Source: Dehalococcoidia bacterium
GTDB taxonomy: Bacteria > Chloroflexota > Dehalococcoidia > Dehalococcoidales > UBA1222
DNA length: 45,712 nt
Reading direction: 5' to 3'
Assembly: GCA_009779255.1 (NCBI GenBank)
Contig: WREQ01000008.1
Location: forward strand, 1-45,712
Each line of letters starts with the position of its first letter. Within the stretch, counting starts at the first letter, position 1. Below the pieces are notes generated by a model. That model made no database searches. It saw nothing but the letters and a program-made list of their open reading frames with translations, and was not told where the DNA came from. Of the stretch, positions 14,894 through 36,911 are shown one piece after another. The position numbers were made by a program, and so were the translations under genes.

Positions 14894-15133
14894 GTCTGAA
14901 TTATAGCACATGAGAACCGCTCTATTGATGTTAATTTGGCAGGGATTGAATCCTGTCTGGTAAGGCTTCCTTTTGGAATTACCCCAAAAAGTCGGAACAG
15001 CGACAAACGATTTGGTTATTACCAAACTCATGGGAGCAAGACGCCCTGTGTCACTAATCATCTGAAATCATACAAAATGTTTGACTCAGGCTTTTCATAA
15101 GGCAATCTATCTATAAGATGAACGAACCTTAGA

Positions 15134-15263
15134 GAATATTCCCAAGCGATGTATCGTAGTCAGGCTGGTTCATTTATGAACAAGAAGCAGGGATAGAAAA
15201 CCTTCAACAACCAGCATTGTCCGTGTTGCTCAAATGATGCAGGGGTCTTTAGTGGGTTGAAGG
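15134..15263 (+). other. Structured repeat element, copy A (putative RNA leader)
   Basis: Homologous to 35817-35939; stems retained through compensatory changes (see findings); TTGACT box at 15081. Confidence 0.6.
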
Positions 15264-15671
15264 CTGAATCCAACATACTACAAAGCAGTGTTAGCATTTC
15301 GCACAGGTGCCAATAAGTTTGTAAGCGCAGGCGGTGCTATATGGTCTTTTAACAGAGGTCAGGGTGGCACAATCTTATCTGCTCCTTTGACTTATTCAAT
15401 CGGTTATTACTATTGGGGTCAAGTAGCGGAGGTAATGATAGTATTTGAAAAGGGGCATACTGGCAATATCACTGGTTACTCCAACATAAATAACTTGGAT
15501 ATTCGCCTTAAAGACTCTTACGGCAATATCGTTGCTACCACAACTTCTACACGTGATAACGTGAAGTTTCTTAACCACTACATCACGGATGATGGGGATT
15601 ACTACATTGAAGTTTATCCTACACAACGGATCAGTCCTGTCACAAGCCTGAGGTTTTACCTGATGTGGTAG
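15264..15671 (+). pseudogene. C-terminal beta-domain fragment resembling a subtilase C-terminus
   Basis: LNPTYYKAVLAFRTG...VFEKGHTGNITGYSNINNLDIRLKDSYGNIVATTTSTRDNVKFLNHYITDDGDYYIEVYP; no signal peptide; stop codon at 15258 directly upstream in frame. Confidence 0.55.
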
Positions 15672-15748: not shown

Positions 15749-16273
15749 GTGGACAAGTTGAAAAAGAATATTTCTATACTAATTGCTTCTGTTGTGCTCT
15801 TCCCTTTGTTGGCATCTTGCCAAAACATAGTTGGTGGCCATACGGATATCATAAATAACATTGAGCAGTCCAATACAATTGACAAGGCCGATTTGATTCA
15901 TATGCCTTCACCAATTGATGTTAAGCCTGTTCTTGACTCTGAAATTGAGCTGAAGCTGCGTGAATCATATAGGCTTAGTGGCGGAAACCCGGAAGATATT
16001 TGGGTTGTGTACTATTTTGGAAATTACAGTGGCTGCGAAGTGTTGTATGTAGGACTTGGAATGCTTTTCCCTGCCGATATGTATAGCCAAGAGGCCGCAG
16101 GATATGCTATTGTTCTTCCATCAGGCCAATCTTTGACGGTATATAAAGACTCTGAGTTCTATGGGCTGGGTAGAGCCTATGATCTGGGACTCATTACTAA
16201 AAATGATGTGTACAACATAGGCAAACTTGGCGGGGTTGGTTTTATTGAGCAGTATCCTGAGCCACTGCGGTAG
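15749..16273 (+). CDS. Putative lipoprotein of unknown function
   Basis: KKNISILIASVVLFPLLASC lipobox; GTG start with ttaggag upstream; shares a motif with the 35997 lipoprotein. Confidence 0.75.
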   Translation: MDKLKKNISILIASVVLFPLLASCQNIVGGHTDIINNIEQSNTIDKADLIHMPSPIDVKPVLDSEIELKLRESYRLSGGNPEDIWVVYYFGNYSGCEVLYVGLGMLFPADMYSQEAAGYAIVLPSGQSLTVYKDSEFYGLGRAYDLGLITKNDVYNIGKLGGVGFIEQYPEPLR

Positions 16274-35644: not shown

Positions 35645-35816
35645 TCATTGCAATACGGTTTTGAGGTACGGCTGGCGCCGGTCAGTTGTGAGCTATAAGT
35701 TCCCAAAATCCATAACTCATTACTCATACAAAACACCTGTTGGACTTATACAGACCTGTTGACAAACCGTTTTTCGGCATGTTACTGTCTGTGCGTAGCG
35801 TGAAAAAGCATTAGCA

Positions 35817-35939
35817 GAATATTCACAGGCGAGGTATCGCAGGCGGGCTTTCTTATGATAAATAAGAAGCAGGAACGCAGAGAACCTTCAGCAACCAGTA
35901 TTGTCCGTGTTATTTCAATGGCGCGGGTGTCTGGTTGCT
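35817..35939 (+). other. Structured repeat element, copy B (putative RNA leader)
   Basis: Homologous to 15134-15263; hairpin AGCAACCAG/CTGGTTGCT; TTGACA at 35759 upstream, ATG 35997 downstream. Confidence 0.6.
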
Positions 35940-35996
35940 TTATTGTTTTTACGGGGAAAGCACTATGAAGCAAATCAGTGCAAAGGCGATGTTGAC

Positions 35997-36911
35997 ATGA
36001 AAAAGTTAAAACTGATTGCCTTACTCTCATTGGTTACACTAACTCCTGTTGTGATGGTGGCGTGTTGGGGCAAATCAAACGAAAAATCAAACGAGCTGGA
36101 AACAAGAATCCGAACTGATTATCTATCGCATTTGCACTCACAAGGGGAACCAGAATTAATTTTGGCGGATATTAAAATATTAAAGATTTACGGTGATTTT
36201 GACGGCGTTGTAGTAGTAAGGTTTGATAGACCTGCCTTTGAAGCGATTACAACCGTTCAAGTTGATGGAGTTGATTTTGTTTTTGATAACACTAATGTTG
36301 CAATCGTTTGGAAAGATGGCAGTTTTTTTGAATTGCAGGAAGCATACGATAACGAACTTTTGACAAAAGGCAATTTGAAATCTATTCAAACACATTACGG
36401 GCAACATTCTTACACAGATGAAGAAATTATAGAAAATGCCAAAGCAATGTCGCTCGAAGACGATTTTGCGGAAGGGATCGTAGATGTAATTATCAAGCAT
36501 GCAAATAGTGTGCATGACACCGAAGAAAGCGTATTATCGCAAATTCGCAATGCTTTGGGTGAAACATTTGAATCCATTAGTGGTTGGATTCCGATTGAAG
36601 AAATAGAGAGCAATCCATTATGGAATCGGGATGGTTTCCGCCAAATAGTGACTGTAACATTGAGGGCAGAAGCAAAAGAGGATGTTTTCAACGCAGTAAC
36701 GAAACTTAACAGATTAGATTTTGTTCTGCTTGCACAACCAAGATATAACTATGAAATTAAGGAAGAATGAACTCCAAATGATACCCTATTTAATTCTCAA
36801 TGGGAGTTGCGCAGAGCGCATGGAATACCAGTGGAATCTGCATGGAATATTGAAAAGGGCAACACCTCTGTCAGAGTTGGGATATTCGAGTCTGGAGCCC
36901 AAAAGAATTAG
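35997..36911 (+). pseudogene. Broken S8 (subtilisin-like) protease: lipoprotein signal, shared domain, propeptide-like segment, TGA, start of the catalytic domain
   Basis: ORF 35997-36770 ends ...VTKLNRLDFVLLAQPRYNYEIKEE*; the same frame continues TPNDTLFNSQWELRRAHGIPVESAWNIEKGNTSVRVGIFESGAQKN*. Confidence 0.65.

Follow-up and report, generated by a model that had tools for sequence, protein, structure and literature searches.

A multicopy uORF-containing leader family, a candidate translation-dependent transcription attenuator, upstream of mostly exported-protein genes in a Dehalococcoidia bacterium

The question raised by the window analyzed here, a 45,712-nucleotide stretch of a Dehalococcoidia bacterium contig (WREQ01000008.1), is whether two similar blocks in it, copy A (15134-15263) and copy B (35817-35939), represent an undescribed class of structured RNA, as the original prediction proposed from apparently compensatory stems. 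The two blocks are homologous: a genome search with copy A as the query gave 77% identity over 120 nt (E = 8.7e-17), and both belong to a nine-copy family. The TTGAC box that had been placed upstream of each is found 53 nt (TTGACT, 15081-15086) and 58 nt (TTGACA, 35759-35764) ahead, and lipoprotein-type genes adjoin both loci as described. The prediction had recognized no known riboswitch consensus; in agreement, Rfam gave no match at gathering score for the window or the leader loci, and a permissive search returned chance matches only. The interpretation as an RNA class is partly supported. A recurring, cis-placed leader absent from Rfam does exist; however, the findings fit a transcription attenuator with a uORF better than an aptamer-type structured RNA class. 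The window also carries a GuaB3-type gene.

The source genome is a 1.14-Mb MAG, 77% complete, and contains nine close copies of the leader (type 1), two of them at C8 (A and B) and one each at C6, C7, C13, C17, C22, C29, and C38. The stretch common to these copies runs from the TTGAC box to near the start codon of the downstream gene, and the sequence further upstream is unrelated. A covariance model built from the nine copies (R1) found one member outside the source genome, in G007, which belongs to another genus of the same family. Searching 41 relatives with a model that combined the R1 copies and the G007 member (R2) returned members in G005, G006, and G008, together with a source-genome copy at C9; another copy, at C26, was reached via a subtilase search. 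A second subtype (type 2) comprises the leaders at C9, C26, and G008:C45, and a model of type-2 leaders (R3) led to three source-genome loci, C46, C16, and C40 (the last by its 5' part only), and to further loci in G006, G007, and G008. The total is at least 23 loci in five genomes of two genera: 14 in the source genome and 9 in four genomes of the sister genus g4. No members outside the family were found in the order (156 genomes) or the class (393 genomes) under strict filters that missed known weak members too, so that absence elsewhere in the order and class is not proved. This is apparently a multicopy leader family that is absent from Rfam and new to description.

A typical unit consists of a sigma-70-type promoter, a Shine-Dalgarno (SD) sequence and start codon, a uORF of 16 to 56 codons, an intrinsic terminator, and then a gene, usually for an exported product. 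Promoter, uORF, and terminator recur in two genera, and their order is the same over the 23 loci in the five genomes. At 12 of the 23 loci, the TTGACA/TATAAT-type promoter was equalled by at most 2 of 100 shuffles; it was weak or not found at C46, G006:C17, A, C6, C13, and C7, and promoters are weaker in most type-1 copies.

Poly-G tracts lie between the -35 and -10 boxes in several type-2 leaders or 3' of a lone TTGACA. They comprise G9 at G000:C9:30731-30739 (L043), G7 at C26:14747-14753 (L046), GGGGGGAGG at C40 (L057), and G20 at C46:92-111 (L055) and C27:14636-14655 (L090); the G20 runs, both located at the ends of contigs, could be artefacts of sequencing. The associated promoter spacers measure 17 versus 19 nt, and such promoters are possibly phase variable, as judged from these tracts.

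Copy B is an intact member of the family (all features of copies B and A described here are on the + strand). Its -35 box, TTGACA at 35759-35764, was identified from the sequence, a column common to the copies, and the promoter scan. The probable -10 box, TACTGT at 35783-35788 after an 18-nt spacer, was placed by eye, and the promoter scan favoured a box shifted by 2 nt; in copies C17 and C29 the -10 box is TACAAT, with a 17-nt spacer. From an approximate start site, the predicted leader RNA extends to the end of the T-run (35795-35950). It includes hairpin P2 (35847-35870), with the uORF start codon in or beside the loop. The 37-codon uORF (MINKKQERREPSATSIVRVISMARVSGCFIVFTGKAL; 35855-35968) passes through the intrinsic terminator (35890-35950; arms 35890-35898 and 35931-35939, T-rich tail 35940-35950; z = -6.0). 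Its stop overlaps the next ATG (ATGA), that of an 11-residue linker ORF (MKQISAKAMLT; 35965-36000) with an ATGA overlap at either end, so that uORF, linker, and lipoprotein gene form a chain. The lipoprotein gene (35997-36770) encodes 257 amino acids with a signal sequence and a lipobox-like VMVAC and falls in no Pfam family. The linker ORF is also found in C6 and C13 and is absent from C38, C7, and C22. Folding against shuffled sequence gave z values of -3.3 for B, -3.1 for C7, and -2.3 for C17.

Copy A is a decayed member. Downstream of its -35 box, TTGACT at 15081-15086, the -10 spacing has been lost through a 3-nt deletion, and the promoter scan found no TTGACA/TATAAT-type promoter there. 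Copy A also lacks 2 nt that the other copies have, which shuts its uORF after six codons (MNKKQG-stop, 15176-15196). Within 15134-15263, homology to the other copies holds until about 15246, the terminator is absent together with its T-run, and the fold is no better than shuffles (z = +0.11). An ORF 3' of it (15288-15671) possibly encodes a secreted-protease C-terminal fragment, the match to a PPC domain being weak and below the cut-off (E = 0.0085, 17.4 bits versus 25.9). The copy A lipoprotein gene (15749-16273) has family members behind B, C6, and C7 and at C17.

The argument from covariation between A and B fails. The outer stem that had been taken as compensatory is drawn in A (CCTTCAAC/GTTGAAGG) and in B (AGCAACCAG/CTGGTTGCT) from non-homologous columns: the CCTTCAAC arm of A aligns with ACCTTC just upstream of AGCAACCAG in B, and the GTTGAAGG arm falls in a part where the copies can no longer be aligned. 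Because these arms are not homologous, their differences are not compensatory change. Pairing in the GCGA/TCGC hairpin had likewise been described as kept, but its changes are one-sided only, with no compensatory pair. Small hairpins can indeed be drawn in both copies, but A and B pair in different registers. A comparison of two copies can make a uORF-terminator leader resemble a new structured RNA.

The covariance-model search of related genomes that had been suggested as a check did supply more homologs, but with firm covariation in the terminator alone. The intrinsic terminator is the sole structure with firm covariation over lineages: across leaders, its outer pairs 4 to 8 are made by several of the standard base pairs, and 13 of 14 terminator hairpins have z values of -3.0 to -6.9. 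P1 hardly varies and hence is uninformative. In P2, three pairs are changed on both sides, all of them in one sequence (G007) and in a model-fitted alignment. Two further candidates were rejected: a long-range GAGGU/ACCUU pairing, of which four of five pairs are invariant and so uninformative, and an SD-sequestering hairpin over all leaders, as hairpins in the uORF start region did not outscore shuffles consistently. At G000:C17:19502-19539 (L018, L044), 38 nt copied from the 3' half of the leader terminator lie within the end of a truncated subtilase ORF and ahead of a second lipoprotein gene; we read this stretch as a recombination scar.

These structures bear on whether the leader is riboswitch-like or protein binding, with the pre-terminator segment (GAGGTGTYGCAG, P2, ACCTTC) sensing a signal and switching between terminator and antiterminator and the uORF incidental. 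Attenuating riboswitches have the same order of promoter, leader, terminator, and gene; GAGGTGTCGCAG is identical between the source genome and G007, of the other genus; P2 has its three both-sided changes; and the long-range pairing can be drawn. However, the conserved segment is lost in type-2 leaders, where an SD sequence and start codon stand at that place. The P2 case comes from the single G007 sequence as fitted to the model, P1 is near-invariant, the GCGA/TCGC variation is one-sided, and the target genes have no common pathway. We therefore consider a sensing leader of this kind unlikely.

The uORF was examined for openness, position, and coding constraint. Exactly one SD-preceded ORF of at least 20 codons was found in each of six leaders (G005, G006:C17, G007:C46, C9, C26, and G008:C45); these six start at an equivalent place, and each crosses the terminator. 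In leaders shuffled with the terminator kept, an SD-bearing ORF of that kind appeared in 6 to 20% of cases, and without the SD requirement ORFs arose in 32 to 71% of shuffles. In type 1, copy B among them, the SD sequence is weak, and these copies failed this combined SD and ORF test; their uORF is open in eight of nine copies. Scoring of 14 leaders, from which the decayed copy A was left out, placed the uORF stop at the terminator 5' arm or past it in all 14 (10 beyond the whole hairpin, 4 ending inside it), a count that overstates independence because the scored leaders are related to each other. One of the 14, G006:C57, has ACG at the start-codon position, and the frame of the uORF relative to the terminator varies between lineages.

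Differences among the eight type-1 uORFs are mostly amino acid changing. In type 2, first, second, and third codon positions differ about equally often, and peptide similarity gave a null result in a column-shuffle test. A conserved leader peptide was rejected on these results, and an amino-acid-sensing leader peptide of the trp or his kind was rejected for want of a conserved peptide or a run of regulatory codons. An N-terminal likeness seen by eye in type-2 leaders (M-x-x-G-x-F-x-I) is no more than nucleotide homology yields. Since the peptide shows no coding constraint, we infer the uORF from its openness and position alone. The sequences give no sign that the peptide itself is the point; instead, the frame is kept open and in overlap with the terminator, as gating by a ribosome would require. 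Separately, the leader at G008:C108:2106-2257 (L056) has lost the terminator, and the end of its uORF (VTLGNIGISNNAIMEVSA) shares an ATGA with the first codon of a gene for an exported protein; this leader seems to have escaped the control proposed for the others.

Most products encoded downstream of the leaders have a signal peptide or lipobox (lipoproteins, a truncated subtilase at C17, and an RCC1-repeat protein) in a tally that excludes the G008:C82 gene; those with no obvious signal are the subtilases at C26 and G008:C45 and the G005 protein. The gene often starts 25 to 60 nt past the T-run. A Pfam search of the downstream lipoproteins gave no family. Among them is a small-lipoprotein family (15749-16273, 35997-36770; L010, L014, L016) with the core YYGxFxG...LxEAYDxGLLT. 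In genus g4, several proteins behind leaders have a common long N-terminal signal region (..KIFTVTLLAVFLFSTSSLTAVLTQQKA..; L020, L050, L051, L054, L056) and mature parts that differ, e.g., RCC1 repeats.

Alternatively, there may be no special regulation: as a gene family was duplicated, its 5' ends, with promoter, leader, and signal sequence, would have been carried along and then homogenised through recombination, the hairpin insulating the gene or terminating weakly. Five copies are homologous into the signal sequence, the lipoproteins behind B, C6, and C7 are paralogues, and the C13 and C38 proteins are nearly identical. Nevertheless, near-identical leaders precede unrelated proteins (C22, C17), and a terminator with a T-run and covariation is kept between promoter and gene in two genera, which makes this account distinctly unlikely. 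For the C22 lipoprotein, G006 encodes an apparent orthologue, likewise preceded by a leader. Yet the leader at C22 resembles that of copy B (about 90% identity) and is far from the G006 leader, which suggests that leaders have been homogenised within the source genome.

Promoter and terminator might also bound stand-alone genes for small RNAs or small proteins, the downstream gene having its own promoter. Such genes would fit a multicopy element of about 150 nt bracketed in this way, but they are very improbable given a placement fixed just 5' of the gene start over two genera, a uORF stop that overlaps the next start in several copies, and a peptide that is not conserved. Least probable of all is a transposon end, MITE, or other mobile repeat, as multiple copies, unrelated upstream flanks, and the 38-nt tail copy at C17:19502 are set against an orientation always towards the gene start, a homologue preceding an orthologous lipoprotein in another genus, and no match to the leader in phage and plasmid records.

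Given the sequences and their comparison, we think it probable that the leader family is a translation-dependent transcription attenuator placed before mostly exported-protein genes. The parts are seen; from them we infer termination and ribosome-driven read-through. RNA polymerase would initiate at the TTGACA/TATAAT-type promoter, and a ribosome would load on the uORF, which starts about 30 to 70 nt downstream of the -10 box. The terminator lies within the uORF or in reach of a ribosome at its stop. A closely following ribosome would block pairing of the terminator 5' arm and let transcription reach the gene; without a close ribosome, the terminator would form and the transcript would end there. 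In type 1, translation may be coupled as well, because the next start codon overlaps the uORF stop or directly adjoins it.

This arrangement resembles the pil1 and pil3 loci of Streptococcus gallolyticus, where a promoter, SD sequence, leader peptide ORF, and premature intrinsic terminator precede surface-protein genes (PMC3894217). Experiments support that longer pil1 leader peptides reaching the terminator raise pilus gene transcription; at both loci, ORFs ending at, in, or past the hairpin give high expression, and the peptide sequence itself is not the signal (PMC3894217). Unlike the leaders described here, these two operons have an ORF length switched by GCAGA repeats (PMC3894217), whereas our family has no repeat within the uORF, at least 14 loci, and poly-G repeats in the promoter spacer of some. 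In E. coli pyrBI, the terminator likewise sits in the leader peptide gene and is suppressed by a close ribosome, and a terminator just downstream of a translated gene was almost completely repressed (PMC4824070). It differs in that UTP is sensed via polymerase pausing and that it is one pyrimidine-synthesis operon (PMC4824070 and its reference 18). Structured-RNA surveys have also met conserved intergenic blocks that proved on inspection to be regulatory uORFs with a terminator stem (PMC6429828). In the examples given in that work, peptide codons link the candidate to a pathway, e.g., F and Y for shikimate genes (PMC6429828), but the peptide here has no such signal and the targets are mostly exported proteins.

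The leaders likely use a mechanism of a known kind in a new setting. It is conceivable, as a tentative extension, that the homogenised leader module and the type-2 poly-G spacers make up a genome-wide switch of the exported-protein repertoire, with stochastic switching and uORF-gated read-through. The translation-gated attenuators known to us mostly serve individual biosynthetic operons, together with one pilus system. If one small genome does reuse such a family at 14 loci, these would constitute a regulon under transcription-translation coupling.
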